From assembly GCA_013995675.1 (NCBI GenBank), contig VWRR01000002.1, positions 785,016-849,015 of the forward strand: a DNA stretch of 64,000 bases. Direction: 5' to 3'. Below are positions 1,351-64,000 of this stretch, in pieces; positions within the stretch are counted from its first letter, which is position 1, and each line of letters opens with the position of its first letter. The position numbers and the translations under genes are program-made. This DNA comes from Cyanidiococcus yangmingshanensis (taxonomy: Eukaryota > Rhodophyta > Bangiophyceae > Cyanidiales > Cyanidiaceae). The notes under the pieces were generated by a model. It made no database searches, was not told the origin of the DNA, and saw only the letters and a program-made list of their open reading frames with translations.

Positions 1351-2139
1351 ATGGATTCAAGACGCCTGCGTCGTGACAACTACGCCCGTGTTGGTGAGGA
1401 TGAAGAGGCGGGTACTGCACGACCGGGTTCGACGCTGGCACGGCGCGGGCCAGCGAACGCCAGTACTCGCCTCACACCCTTTCGGTCAGCCCGGGCAGCG
1501 ATCCAAGTTGTCGCGGTCGGCGTTGTGCTTGTCCTGATCACCACAGGTATGCTGTACGGTGCGCAACGGTACTGGTTGGAGCCCCGAACCGGAACGTCCT
1601 CGGGGCACGCGCTCTCTGCGGCGGACGCGCAGCTCCGAGCGGCGCTGGATGTTAACGCAACTGTTGTTGCTGAGGCGAGACAAGCGGTGCTCTTCACCCC
1701 AAGCGCATGAGTAAGTTGCCCAGAAGAGTGATGACAGAGATAGAAATACCTTATCTACATTGACGGAGATGCGACTGATGCGGGCATCTCGATGAGGAAT
1801 ACACTAGACTACTTGACTGACCCTGGGAACAAGAGACTAACCGCGACCGAGACGAGCGATGATTGCCTTGGATATCGAGGTGCATCGCTGCTGATGCGAC
1901 AATAGGCTTTGGGGAGGTATCCCGGAGTGCGCGATTTTACTACCCGAGTTTTCGTGGCGAATACGTGGAGCTTTCAGCGGCCAGTGCGGCGTGATTTTAC
2001 CGGTGGCAAACCCTTCCTCACATTCTACGGGGAAGGTGGCGTTGTCCTTCGACATGTCGCCATTGACCTGCTGAGCGCAGAACAGATAGCTCTCGTACTA
2101 GAGAGACACGGATTTCCAAGGATACCTCCGCAATCGTAG
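1351..2139 (+). CDS. Membrane-anchored Sep15/SelM-like selenoprotein (candidate, 2 exons)
   Basis: Exon 1 (1351-1710) encodes a basic N-terminus, one hydrophobic segment (about residues 50-70, a signal-anchor), then a likely lumenal stretch with an N-A-T sequon at 102. It runs to TGA at 1708-1710 (codon 120). A GTAAGT donor follows immediately. Exon 2 (1906-2139, 77 residues) begins A-L-G-R-Y-P-G-V-R-D-F and matches the thioredoxin-like fold of Sep15/SelM down to its end (GFPR versus GFYR in SelM). Joining the exons puts UGA exactly where Sep15 has selenocysteine (U-x-L-G-R-x-P-x-V-x-x-F). A SECIS-like hairpin follows at 2153-2222. Total 197 residues. Sep15/SelM are ER oxidoreductases; an ER-lumenal redox role is inferred. 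Oddities: no cysteine anywhere, so the usual CG(G)U partner is absent (here P-S-A-U), and there is a TM anchor instead of a cleavable signal. If UGA is a stop, exon 1 alone is a 119-aa membrane protein. Confidence 0.72.
1711..1905 (+). other. Spliceosomal intron of the Sep15/SelM-like gene
   Basis: A 195-nt intron with donor GTAAGT at 1711, ACTAAC branch-site-like sequence at 1836-1841 and acceptor AATAG ending at 1905. Exon 2's frame has TAG directly before its first codon and exon 1 would stop at 1729 if unspliced, so splicing is required to join the halves. The junction is phase 0, directly after the in-frame TGA. Confidence 0.7.
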
Positions 2140-2152
2140 CAGCGTTCAAGAC

Positions 2153-2222
2153 GAGCAGTCGTGACCATGAGACAACTTCCGAAAAGGCGGTCTCGCTCGG
2201 GAAGTGGTTGACCCGATTGCTT
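2153..2222 (+). promoter_or_regulatory. SECIS-like element in the 3' UTR
   Basis: Read directly: lower helix gagcagtcg (2153-2161) with cgattgctt (2214-2222), 9 pairs including two G-U. The quartet strands are ATGA at 2167-2170 and TGA at 2209-2211 (UGAG facing UGAC, giving tandem G.A pairs). The upper helix is acaacttcc (2172-2180) with ggaagtggt (2200-2208), with one A.G mismatch. Conserved loop adenines AA at 2182-2183 lie 11 nt after ATGA. This is the order and spacing of a eukaryotic SECIS, which recruits SBP2/EFSec to recode UGA. It starts 14 nt after the final TAG. Confidence 0.75.
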
Positions 2223-2929
2223 GCCCTTGAGCCAATATCAGGAAAGGGAACGAAAGACTCCTTCAGGTAAGCAGGGATGATTTTTGGGGCATGTAAAGAC
2301 TATTGGTCGAGCGTCGCGCTTCGGCTTATGATTCCAGGTTCCAGACTTGTGGTAGAACGACTTTTGAGGGCGAGCATCCGACGCGCCCACAGCAGTCTCC
2401 TCTTTGTCATCGGTGCTGAAGTGCGAAGTGGCGGTGGACTCAGGGAGAGCGCTGCTGCGTAGTGCGCACACAGCTTTGACGGCTGCCTGGTCCCTGGCGA
2501 AGCGAAGCTGTCATTCGTCATCATCTGACCATTCGAAGATCATCGAGAAAGCGCCCTGAAACGTCGATTCGAATGGTCGGCATTTGCGACTGACCCCAGA
2601 TCGTGTCGAATATCGCTAGATCGTATTCGATCTGGTTTGTCCTCAACAAGTCAGAGGACATTGCTGCTATGGGCTGCGTATCTTTCCAGTCGATATTCGC
2701 AACAGGTACGTGCCTCCATCGCTCCATGCATCCTGTGATTTCAGGCTTTGGGAGTATAGTGCTCTACCTGAGGCGAGAGGCAGAGCACCTTCTTGGACCA
2801 TTCGAGCATTGGATGCCCGTGGACCCAGATATGAGGTTCACTCTGGGTACACAGGGCGCTCTGTCTGCGATTTCGTGGCCACCTGCCTCGACATTCGCCG
2901 CGCGGTGAAGTCGAAGAACGCGTCCGCTC
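2223..2929. other. Intergenic, no recognised gene
   Basis: Only short overlapping ORFs. A 68-codon ATG ORF on the minus strand (2521-2727) is the most protein-like, but I recognise nothing in it. Confidence 0.35.
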
Positions 2930-59639: not shown

Positions 59640-59875
59640 GAGTGAAAGAGAAGCCTCAGTGGAATAAGGGATATGGGATGGCGTGATGAAATTGGGGTGA
59701 ATGGAGTGAATAGGCTGAAAAGATACTTCAGTGAATTGCGGTGAATGGAGTGAAAGAGAAGATTCAGTGGAATGGGGTGAATGGGGTGAATGGGGTGAAT
59801 GGGGTGAATGGGGTGAATGGGGTGAATGGGGTGAATGGGGTGAATGGGGGAACTAGGGGTGAATGGGGTGAATCG
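59640..59875 (+). repeat. Telomere-like array of AATGGGGTG
   Basis: Eight perfect head-to-tail copies of GGGGTGAAT (59774-59845), two more after an interruption, and decayed AATGGAGTG/GAATGG copies upstream to about 59640. The 9-bp unit differs by one base from AATGGGGGG, the telomere unit known for Cyanidioschyzon merolae. Confidence 0.85.
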
Positions 59876-60479
59876 GGGTGGCCGGATATGATTGTTCTGG
59901 GCCCTTTCAATGGAGCCAAGCTCCCTATCAACGAGAAGTTGGTTTTCTATTTGCTGTTAGGGCTTCAGAGTGTGTCCTGGTTACGCACTCCATGCTGGCT
60001 GGCAGCGCTCTGCTGGACGCGGGTCACAGGTGAGCGGCCCTTGGGCGATCGAGGTCGCCTCTCAAGCTCGATCGGGCGTTGTGTCTGCGCTCGTCCGCTG
60101 CTCTTGAGCTTGTGGTTGAGTGTTGGTGACGTTTTTCTTCTCTCTGTTTTGTTCTGTTCTGTAGAGTTTTTTTTGTAGAGTTTCATTCGGTCCGGTTTCC
60201 GTTTTTGTTATTGTTGTAGCTTTCAGTTTTTTGGTCTTTTGATGATGTCTCGAGAGAGTATGGCTGGGCAGTCGAGGGTGGTGTGTGCCTGGGTCCGCCA
60301 GGGCTGAGAGCTTAGCCTAGCCGAGCGCAGCCCAGCGCAGCCGCTTGTGGCGTGTCAGCCAAGGGCTGTAGCAGTGTTTTGAAGAGTTTTGGCGGTGCGT
60401 TTGAGGTGTTGTTCTTTTGTTTTTTTGTTATTTTCATTTTGTATATTTGTTGATTAGTATGTGAGGGACGGTATGGTGT

Positions 60480-61110
60480 ATTTGTTGAGAATCCGGGGAT
60501 CGTCGGTGATTGAGCACACCGGCTGGCCCAGGCCAGTCTATCGACTAGTAGCGTCGAGCCGGTGCCGACGGTGTGTTTTCGGCAGCTTTGGAGGCTGGTT
60601 TCTGTCCTTGTTCTTTTGGTTTTCTCCGGTTTCTTTTTACAGACGTGTTATTGAGAGCTTCAGGCCTGTTTCGGTATGCCTCGCTGTGATTTCGAGAATC
60701 GTCGGTGATTGGGTGAACCGGCTGGCCCGGGCCAGTCTATCGACTAGGGGCGTCGAGCCGGGGCCGAAGCTGTGTTTTCACAGGCTCTCGAGGCTGGTTT
60801 CTGTTCTTGTTCTTCAGTTTTTCTCCGATTTCTTTTTACAGACGTGTTATTAAGAGCTTCAAGAGTGGTTTGGTATGTCTCGCTGTGATTTTGAGAATCG
60901 TCGGTGATTGGGTGCACCGGCTGGCCCGGGCCAGTCTGCCAGACAGTAGCGTTGAGCCGGGGCCGAAGCTGTGTTTTCACAGGCTCTCGAGGCTGGTTTC
61001 TCTCCTTGTTCTTTGGTTTTCACCGGTTTCTTTTTACGGACGTGTTATTGAGAGCTTCAAGAGTGGTTTGGTATGTTTCGCTATGATTTTGAGAATCGTC
61101 AGTGATTGGG
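60480..61110 (+). repeat. 199-bp tandem repeat, about 3.2 copies
   Basis: The landmark cgtcggtgat recurs at 60501, 60700, 60899 and (as cgtcagtgat) 61097, giving periods of 199, 199 and 198. Each unit contains ggctggcccgggccagtct, an internal palindrome, and a T-rich stretch with tttctttttacagacgtgtt. Confidence 0.92.
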
Positions 61111-61330
61111 TGCTCGCCCCGAGAGCGTCCCTCCGTTTGTAGGGTCGGTACGAGGGCGCGCCCGCAACGGGACAGCGTGGCGCGATGGCCGCTGCGTATC
61201 GATGCATGTATTCATCGCTGGCCAGCTGTGCCAGCTGGTCGACGTGTCGTACGTATCGTTTCTACCTGGGTCGGTTTCTGCATTTTTTTTAATTTTTTTT
61301 TGCTATCTGCTCAGTCTAGAATACTGGTTG

Positions 61331-64000
61331 TTATTGTTGTTGTTGGTGGTTTTGGTTTTGGTTTTGGTTTTGGTGTTGGTGTTGGTAGCACTCAGCTCAG
61401 TCGAATGTAGGTAGGTGTGCCGATGCGCTCGCCGGTGCCTCTAGTGCCTGTAGTGCCTCTGGTGCGCCCAGTAACTGTAGAGAGAATTGGTCGTGGCTCC
61501 AGGACGAGTTACTGTCTTTGCGGTTCTGGGCGCTTTATTTCTTGAGCTGCGCAGTTTTTCTTTTTCTTTTTCTTTTTTGGGTTCCCCTGTGTTTGTAAAA
61601 AAAGGTTCATATGATTTTTATGGTTGCTGAGAGCTGTGGGGTCGGAGCATGATCCGGTCCCACCAGGGTGCGTGCGTGTGTGTCGGTGCTAGTGCTGCGC
61701 ACTGCGTCGAACAGAACCACGACTGGAGGGTGCAGCACAGCTATGTTCAGCTCCGTTAATCTCTATTCAGCTCTATTCAGCTGCGTTATACTCAGTTCAG
61801 CTCTGTTCAGCTGCGTTAATCTCTGCTCAGCTCCGTTATACTCTGTTCAGCTCTGCTCAGCTCCGTTAATCTCTGCTCAGCTCCGTTAATCTCTGTTCAG
61901 CTATGTTCAGCTCTGCTCAGCTCCGTTAATCTCTGTTCAGCTATGTTCAGCTCTGCTCGCTCCGTTAATCTCTGTTCAGCTATGTTCAGCTCTGCTCAGC
62001 TCAGGCCAACGAGGCAGGTTGCTGAATGTCTTGCACCAACTCTGTTTTGTATTGCTATTTTTTTCAGGTAACTCTCCATTCAAGAGCAGGGTAAGAATCA
62101 GGCCGAGTAGATTTTTTTTGTTATTTTTTTGCATGCCCATGGTCGCTTCGTTTCGGATCGTCAAGTCACCATAGGTCCGTTCCCAGTGTTCATGGCGTCG
62201 GTTCCTACTGTGATCGATGCTGGCACCGGCCTGTGCGCGGTCTCTGTGAATACCGCTACTGCTGCTGCTGTTGCCGCTGTTGGCCATCGCGATCGGAATT
62301 GTCAATCGGCAATCGGCATCGGCATCGACAATCAGTCATCCGCCATCGGTATCAGCATCGCTCTCGGCCATCGCTGAAATCGTCTCCGTCAGGCGCGCCG
62401 TGAGGATCTAGGATCGATGATACCGGATGGCATTGTTGGTCTGGTTCTGGCGCTGGCGCTGGCGCCGCCGACCAAACGACAGTTGCGCGTTGAATTGGGT
62501 CGGACGCTCGGATTGGCTGCTTGCACGCCTCGGCTGGGGTGCGCGCCGTGTCCGTCTGTCTGTCGCAGGACGCTGTGGCGCAGCAGGTGCTGTCCTGGGG
62601 AGCTGTCAGGGAATGATGTCTTGGGGAGCTGTCACGTTGATCCTGTGACGGTGAGCTGTCTCGTGGACGCTGTCCCGTCAGAGGCGGCGGCGCATCACTG
62701 CTGGGGGCGGCGCATCACTGCTGGGGGCGGCGCATCGATTGCTCGTGCGAGCGTTCGCTGGCGTTCGCTGGCGTTCGCTGGCGATCGCGTGCGGCGTCGC
62801 AGCGTCTGTCCATTTTCGGTCAGGCAAAAGCGTGCGTGCGCGTGCGCGTGCGCCTGCGCCTAGGCGTTGGCGGGAGATGCGCGCCGCGCGATGGATCTGT
62901 CGCGGCTAGTCGTGTCCAATTCTGTGCTGTCCAGTCCAGTCGTGGCCTGGCGATCGACAGCGGCGCAGGATGCGTTCGCTGTTCTCAATCGCCGACTGAC
63001 CGAGCGTGTCCGAGGTGAACGATCGTGCTGTTCGCTACTCCCCAGAGGTTTCCATAACTGATATTCATTGAATACGACATAGCATAGCATGTCGTCAGTT
63101 CGAATAATATTGAGAAAGCGCCAATACCAATCATTGTTCATACAGACTAGACAACCATGGGTCTATTGAGATGTTAAATAGTCAGATGGTCCGATCAATC
63201 TATATTTGAGCAGTTGGGCACAAAAGAGTAAGTCAGAGCGAAACGAAAACCTTGAAGATCTATGCGAGTCTCCAACGATTCATGCTGTGGTCGACGAGCG
63301 CACCAGCATCATTCAGATCTGCATGGGTCCTTGGTTGTGCAGCCATTCGCCAGCTCGTTATTGTCTCAAACCGGAAAAGATCCCTGCAGGAGCGTCTAGG
63401 CCAGGCAGCGGCGTCGTGGAGGATCGTAACTGTGGTCCCAGCTGCGACGTCGAGGGCTCGTCCGAAGCAACCCCGATCGGCAGCATGCCTATCCAAGATG
63501 AGCAGGCGCCATTGGGCCAGTGAAGTATATCCAAGAGATCAGGTTGGACGCCGGGCCTCTGGGATGGGAGCGGCGGCATCGCAGAACGGCCAAGGAGCGC
63601 CGAATCGATGGCGGCGATGGCGGCGCCAGCATAGCACCCCTGGGCTACCTAACGAGTACCGTGTGATCCGATGGTTGTGCGCAAGGAGGTGCGCCATCGA
63701 ATCTGGTATCGAAAGATCTGCGACGAGCGACCCTGGGAGCAATCTAAGTCCGAAGCGTGCGACAGCGCTGCGTCCAGTATGCATGCCCAACGGCGGCGAA
63801 AGAGCACTGAGGATGAAGATCTGAACAAGAGCACAAAGATTGACAATACGAAACGGTTCCCCAAACCGAGAAGCAACCTACTGGTAAGGATCTAGACCTA
63901 AATCGTTACCGAAGAAAAGACCCAGAGTTAAACAAATAAAGAGCTAGTAGCGTCCGTAAACAAATATAGATGCACATCTCTGTCTGGAGGATATAAAACA
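61331..64000 (+). repeat. Subtelomere-like direct repeat, unit 2 (cut by window edge)
   Basis: Homologous to 56970 through about 59310 of unit 1, with an expanded minisatellite, extra ggggcggcgcatcactgct copies near 62690-62730 and many substitutions. No convincing ORF. Confidence 0.85.
61741..62002 (+). repeat. CAGCTC/GTTAATCTC minisatellite, long allele (unit 2)
   Basis: About 260 bases of alternating gttcagctctg, ctcagctccg and ttaatctct modules. Roughly 2.5 times longer than the unit-1 array. Confidence 0.85.

Follow-up and report, generated by a model that had tools for sequence, protein, structure and literature searches.

A candidate two-exon selenoprotein gene with a Sep15/SelM-like domain in the red alga Cyanidiococcus yangmingshanensis

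Introduction

An open reading frame that runs into a TGA, with a splice donor immediately behind it and, beyond the intron, an exon that resembles the part of a selenoprotein just after its selenocysteine (Sec), raises the question of whether that TGA ends the protein or is read as Sec. Such an arrangement is present near the start of a 64-kb stretch of DNA (the window, meaning the whole stretch that was analysed) from the cyanidialean red alga Cyanidiococcus yangmingshanensis. The best explanation is that this is very probably a two-exon selenoprotein gene in which UGA is decoded as Sec, and the evidence for and against that reading is set out below.

The question is of wider interest in this group of algae. 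Cyanidioschyzon merolae, a close kin of Cyanidiococcus yangmingshanensis, has been listed since 2007 as having the Sec machinery and no selenoprotein; the available text of PMC2375036 reports SBP2, EFsec, SecS, SPS2 and tRNA-Sec, finds no selenoprotein, and proposes a lineage-specific selenoprotein, an unusual SECIS or an incomplete genome. Machinery with zero selenoproteins is likewise what the available excerpts of PMC6627142, PMC7539508, PMC3473315 and PMC6254913 give for C. merolae. The results part of PMC6627142 has C. merolae without PSTK, while its discussion can be read as referring to SBP instead, and a few selenoproteins are credited there to Galdieria sulphuraria, a more distant cyanidiophyte. 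In the excerpts of PMC7238072, Cyanidioschyzon is named in passing among the selenoprotein algae, with a ribosomal DNA paper as the source, and is later said to have none identified. A literature search that covered mostly papers outside subscription, in the portions available, turned up no individual selenoprotein described from the Cyanidiales.

Gene layout and codon usage

The features of the candidate gene, up to the stop codon of its second exon, are as follows (window coordinates).

1351..1707, + strand: coding part of exon 1, 119 residues from the ATG at 1351, with a basic N-terminus, one hydrophobic segment and the beginning of the putative redox domain, ending ...ARQAVLFTPSA
1708..1710, + strand: in-frame TGA, the last codon of exon 1 and the proposed Sec120
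1711..1905, + strand: proposed spliceosomal intron of 195 nt, with a GTAAGT donor, ACTAAC at 1836-1841 and a TAG acceptor (CAATAG)
1719..1827, + strand: layout like that of a box C/D snoRNA, within the intron, with a 5-bp CCCAG/CTGGG stem, C box at 1728-1734 and D box at 1817-1820
1906..2136, + strand: coding part of exon 2, 77 residues, with the Sep15/SelM-like domain starting right after the Sec
2137..2139, + strand: TAG stop, the end of the exon 2 frame

The first-pass annotation had proposed the succession of exon 1, TGA, GTAAGT, ACTAAC, AG acceptor and exon 2, and all of its coordinates are borne out by the sequence. Exon 2 opens with GCT TTG GGG AGG TAT CCC, translates as ALGRYPGVRDF and has its 77 codons open to the TAG. 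Seven AGs end within 1851-1948, and the joined frame was tested for each: the one at 1905 is the sole AG that is not part of a GAG and yields the longest frame (77 residues), and the six others, all GAG and with frames of 1 to 48 residues, were ruled out as acceptors. GTAAGT occurs 13 times and ACTAAC three times on the two strands of the window, and only once, in this intron, do the two stand as a pair 20-700 nt apart; another 200 kb, taken from elsewhere on this contig, has no such pair on either strand. The available text of PMC9812998 gives 36 introns, 12.0 Mbp, 20 chromosomes and 54.6% GC for Cyanidiococcus yangmingshanensis 8.1.23 F7 in its Table 1, relative to which one of its sentences swaps the sizes of two species. 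The genome searched here has 12,072,675 bases in 20 contigs, the GC content of the window is 51-58%, and the candidate gene is a single match in that genome. Joined across the proposed intron, the protein has 197 residues and not one Cys. Its divergent neighbour, on the - strand at 1-429 of the window, is the start of a spermidine synthase gene. Far from the gene, at 59699-62002 and a few kb from the contig end, are tandem repeats, one of them with 199-nt units.

Codon usage backs exon 1 and gives no help to a coding reading of exon 2. The codon score of exon 1, 0.070, is reached by none of 704 off-frame windows. That of exon 2 is neutral at -0.002, a value reached by 29 of the 704 off-frame windows and, among 4389 open windows that lie outside long frames, by 1697; of 352 coding windows, drawn from the 50 longest frames (possibly with some overlap between these), 46 score no higher than exon 2. 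The intron, too, has 53 open codons in the same frame (1744-1902), bounded by stops on both sides, and the score of this stretch, 0.059, is higher than that of exon 2 and near that of exon 1. The box C/D-like layout in the intron is the only one in the 64 kb, with one more in a further 200 kb (both strands each). In an Rfam search of the intron no family came over threshold, and three sub-threshold C/D-box matches fell at other bounds.

A Sep15/SelM-like domain in the register of the TGA

Against 24,736 Pfam models, exon 2 alone has a sole match, Sep15_SelM (PF08806), with an E-value of 0.027 and 15 bits. The joined full-length protein, for which the first-pass annotation had suggested a profile search, matches the same family with 16.3 bits (E 0.01), and the joined domain of 89 residues, in which Cys stands in for Sec, does so with 19.4 bits (E 0.0011). 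All three scores are below the curated Pfam cut-off of 26 bits. Exon 2 residues 2-70 correspond to profile positions 11-75, and in all three queries the TGA falls on position 9. The human proteins SELENOM and SELENOF score 95.3 and 109.4 bits. With residue 40 of SELENOM and residue 88 of SELENOF on profile position 1, we take their Secs, U48 and U96, to fall on position 9 as well, assuming that no gap occurs over the first nine positions. When exon 2 was shuffled 2000 times, its score against human SELENOM was reached by four shuffles and that against human SELENOF by 91, the latter a weak likeness. Together with the layout of the gene, the likeness of exon 2 to Sep15_SelM in the register of the TGA is more than chance, with each protein score alone below the cut-off.

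The motif U-x-L-G-R-x-P-x-V-x-x-F that the first-pass annotation had pointed to is fitted exactly by U-A-L-G-R-Y-P-G-V-R-D-F, as it is around the Sec of human SELENOF. The Sec would stand in the catalytic column of the family, position 9 of the profile, as in SELENOM, with exon 2 aligned over profile positions 11-75. The CxU/CxxU redox motif is absent, since the protein is without any Cys, and TPSAU takes its place. Two defining features of PF08806, a score above the curated cut-off and CxU/CxxU, are lacking, and the protein is not filed here as a member of the family; having no Cys and sub-cut-off scores, it is called Sep15/SelM-like. The differences go further than the motif. SELENOM has its signal cleaved and is soluble in the lumen, whereas the candidate has a hydrophobic, anchor-like segment; SELENOF carries a CxU motif and a Cys-rich, UGGT-binding N-terminal domain, neither of which the candidate has. 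The first-pass assignment to Sep15/SelM, then, holds in the register and in the Sec column and falls short in the score, the missing Cys and the anchor-like segment.

That segment spans about residues 46-71, with its highest Kyte-Doolittle mean over 19 residues (2.39) from residue 50 on, and follows a basic N-terminus that has 11 K/R against 6 D/E in 48 residues. The two together suggest a signal anchor that would place the domain in the ER lumen, and the protein looks to be membrane-anchored. A PF08806 profile search of the whole genome gave no match and so missed the candidate gene itself, and absences from such genome-wide profile searches, among them that of any match to the Rdx family (SelT/W/H), therefore carry little weight. 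The one PDB match to the joined protein was dismissed as chance.

A SECIS-like hairpin behind the stop codon

A selenoprotein gene of this kind would need a SECIS in its 3' UTR, and a hairpin with the expected parts lies just past the TAG.

2152..2223, + strand: SECIS-like element, its AUGA starting 28 nt past the stop codon
2152-2161/2214-2223, + strand: helix I, 10 bp
2167-2170 (AUGA) opposite 2210-2211 (GA), + strand: SECIS quartet
2172-2180/2200-2208, + strand: helix II, 8 of 9 pairs formed
2182-2185, + strand: AAAA of the apical loop

The predicted structure, which has an internal loop after helix I, supplies helix I, the AUGA/GA quartet, helix II and the apical AA that a SECIS requires. 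An initial, looser scan returned five rows on the + strand, two of them at the candidate site, and three on the - strand. Under strict rules, which were fixed from the general SECIS consensus after the site had first been seen, 2152-2223 is the one site in the 64 kb on either strand. In 25 random 64-kb sequences with the same dinucleotide frequencies, the rules without helix I picked out 0.08 sites per strand on average, or 0.32 when every TGA was accepted, and the rules with helix I none; a further 200 kb of DNA held no site with helix I and two without it, one of these an RTGA.

The Rfam SECIS_1 model (RF00031) aligns over 1-64, with AUGA, AAA and UGA in register, at 15.5 bits against a gathering score of 35 (E 1.3 over 4227 families), and nothing else matches in the 124 nt tested; SECIS_1 gave no match at E up to 10 either over 5 kb or genome-wide. 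Genuine SECIS elements can miss this model. Folded freely, the hairpin has a z-score of -2.18, with seven of 200 shuffles as good, and its free-energy minimum pairs the quartet region otherwise and contains no quartet, as is expected when the folding program has no model for G-A pairs of this kind.

Selenocysteine machinery in the genome and the case for a relic

Absence of the Sec machinery, which the first-pass annotation had named as grounds for rejecting a Sec reading, is not the case: genes for most of the components are present. The search recovered tRNA-Sec with anticodon UCA, SecS, a Cys form of SPS, EFSec and a divergent SBP2, and did not find PSTK. The tRNA-Sec scores 59.5 bits against a gathering score of 47. 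SecS gave four matches. Among them are two near-identical copies, one on contig C1 with a single frame and one on C15 split into two pieces, as well as a weak match on C12; the C15 frame changes where the copies differ by 1 nt. SecS and its neighbours are duplicated between the two contigs (L002 on C1 and L003 on C15), with 10 substitutions and small indels at three places over about 2 kb, so small indels, be they errors or mutations, do occur in this assembly. For SPS there is one open frame, 591 residues long, whose motif KGCGCKVPQ puts a Cys at the Sec/Cys site.

The profile search for the SelB family returned 22 matches in the genome. Those at L006-L012 were set aside, on reading, as mitochondrial EF-Tu, EF-1-alpha, a GTPBP1-like protein, an eRF3/HBS1-like pair, eIF2-gamma and IF-2, and EFSec itself was located behind three weak matches on C14, the remaining C14 match being read as another GTPase. 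The eRF3/HBS1-like genes, so named from reading, are a near-identical pair on C4 (L009) and C7 (L010). The EFSec GTPase domain scores 146.7 bits to human eEFSec and 76.8 to archaeal SelB among the best 60 of 186 PDB matches. In this assembly its coding sequence is spread over three frames (L018 1217-3462), the second of which matches EF-Tu domain 2 with 23.8 bits and the third the fourth domain of eEFSec with 24.7 bits (cut-off 27), both scores being under their own cut-offs; against the PDB the third frame had no match at E up to 1. Assembly errors and real damage are indistinguishable here as the origin of the three frames.

For SBP2, five matches to the L7Ae family were all read as housekeeping proteins. 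A divergent domain matches the human SBP2 domain at E 1.6e-4 and 23% identity, and the sole PDB match (E up to 1) of this candidate, L046, is the SBP2 of 7zjw/7zjx, at E 0.0018. As for PSTK, in searches that can miss divergent genes, PF08433 led to one locus for KTI12 and one for an AAA_18 kinase, and TIGR03575 led only to a 19-position match at E 0.066; the latter (L048 2-622, C15) is a small P-loop kinase-like frame, from reading more of the polynucleotide-kinase type, and was not accepted as PSTK.

An EFSec in three frames and a PSTK that was not found, along with the neutral codon score of exon 2, are what would be seen if the locus were a relic, a former selenoprotein gene in a strain that has lost or is losing Sec insertion, so that UGA ends translation and only a membrane stub is made. 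We consider this improbable. The tRNA-Sec is over its gathering score, SPS is one frame of 591 residues, SecS has a copy with a single frame, and the SECIS pairing is intact; the differences between the SecS copies show that small indels, whether errors or mutations, occur in this assembly. PSTK is also reported as missing from C. merolae in the available text of PMC6627142, yet that alga has SBP2, EFsec, SecS, SPS2 and tRNA-Sec according to PMC2375036.

Relatives of the exon 1 product and the place of the TGA

Three proteins (P0002, P0003 and P0004) match the exon 1 product among 1702 scored candidates, and the same three are among the matches listed for an alignment query with 8000 scored candidates. 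Identity is 92% for P0002 and 62% for P0003 and P0004, and the exon 1 product is conserved in these relatives through the last residue before the TGA. P0002 and P0003 have the C-terminus ...ARQAVLFTPSA, exactly up to the place of the TGA. P0004 is the same as P0003 over 105 shared residues and then reads W-V-S-T-P-S-E-W..., where the window, read in frame without splicing, gives TPSA-stop-V-S-C-P-E-E-stop-stop. Its first W thus falls on the TGA and its next W on the second in-frame TGA of the window (1729-1731), and with its W's at the first two TGAs these residues may be artefacts of a gene caller that used code 4. The V-S of P0004 fits GTA AGT, which suggests that a TGA followed by a donor has been conserved at about 62% protein identity. 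Also kept in P0004 is YLIYIDG, a translated short stretch of the intron, and the snoRNA-like layout in the intron may be the reason. Attempts to locate the DNA of the relatives gave 25 pattern matches for P0003 among viral contigs and 176 for P0002 among genome contigs, none of them confirmed. With the exon 2 protein as the query, the only match was P0005 (one candidate), which is encoded by the window itself.

That P0002 and P0003 end where the TGA stands would also be expected if the UGA were an ordinary stop behind a short, conserved, single-pass membrane protein, which is possible in itself, with exon 2 non-coding or part of another transcript; the neutral codon score of exon 2 agrees with this. 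Several features stand against it: conservation reaches the last residue before the TGA, an intron donor lies immediately 3' of it, exon 2 continues the Sep15/SelM register from the Sec onward, and a SECIS-like element comes just after the exon 2 stop. We regard an ordinary stop as highly unlikely. Least probable of all is near-cognate readthrough, in which UGA would be decoded as an amino acid other than Sec: the full-length frame after the proposed splicing and the W of P0004 at the place of the TGA would suit it, but that W may stem from a code-4 gene caller, the SECIS and tRNA-Sec fit Sec, and TGA ends nine of the 16 ATG frames of at least 250 codons in the window (a mechanical count on both strands) and so is a common stop there.

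A proposed selenoprotein and its meaning for the Cyanidiales

The reading of UGA as Sec, which the first-pass annotation had put forward, is supported by the domain register, the SECIS-like hairpin and the machinery genes, and the candidate is in all likelihood a selenoprotein gene. From its sequence we infer splicing, Sec insertion, topology, fold and redox role along the following lines. Splicing would join the TGA at the end of exon 1 to the GCT of exon 2, bringing UGA next to GCU; the SECIS behind the stop would recruit SBP2 and EFSec with Sec-tRNA(UCA), and the ribosome would insert Sec120. The product would be a single-pass membrane protein, its basic tail probably cytosolic and its thioredoxin-like, Sep15/SelM-like domain lumenal. 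At the catalytic position of the family, and as the sole Cys-like residue of the protein, Sec120 would make this a one-selenol redox enzyme; with no Cys in the protein to partner it, it would have to work on its own and be regenerated by an outside thiol. Translation of an unspliced transcript would end with the UGA or one of the stops beyond it, so that splicing would gate the redox domain.

In its Sec machinery Cyanidiococcus yangmingshanensis resembles C. merolae, with tRNA-Sec, SecS, SPS, EFSec and SBP2 present and PSTK not found; the difference is that here a candidate selenoprotein gene and a SECIS-like element are at hand. A gene that is divergent and split at its Sec codon would explain why earlier scans of C. 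merolae missed it, if that alga has it too. A lone Sec in a Cys-free domain would, if true, be unusual redox chemistry for the Sep15/SelM family. It is an evenly balanced proposition that here lies the missing selenoprotein, maybe the sole one, that explains why a whole Sec machinery has been kept in the Cyanidiales: a Cys-free, membrane-anchored one-selenol enzyme, whose Sec codon would gain its reading context only when one of the genome's few introns, itself perhaps snoRNA-encoding, is spliced out, and which would be served by a Sec pathway seemingly without a recognisable PSTK.
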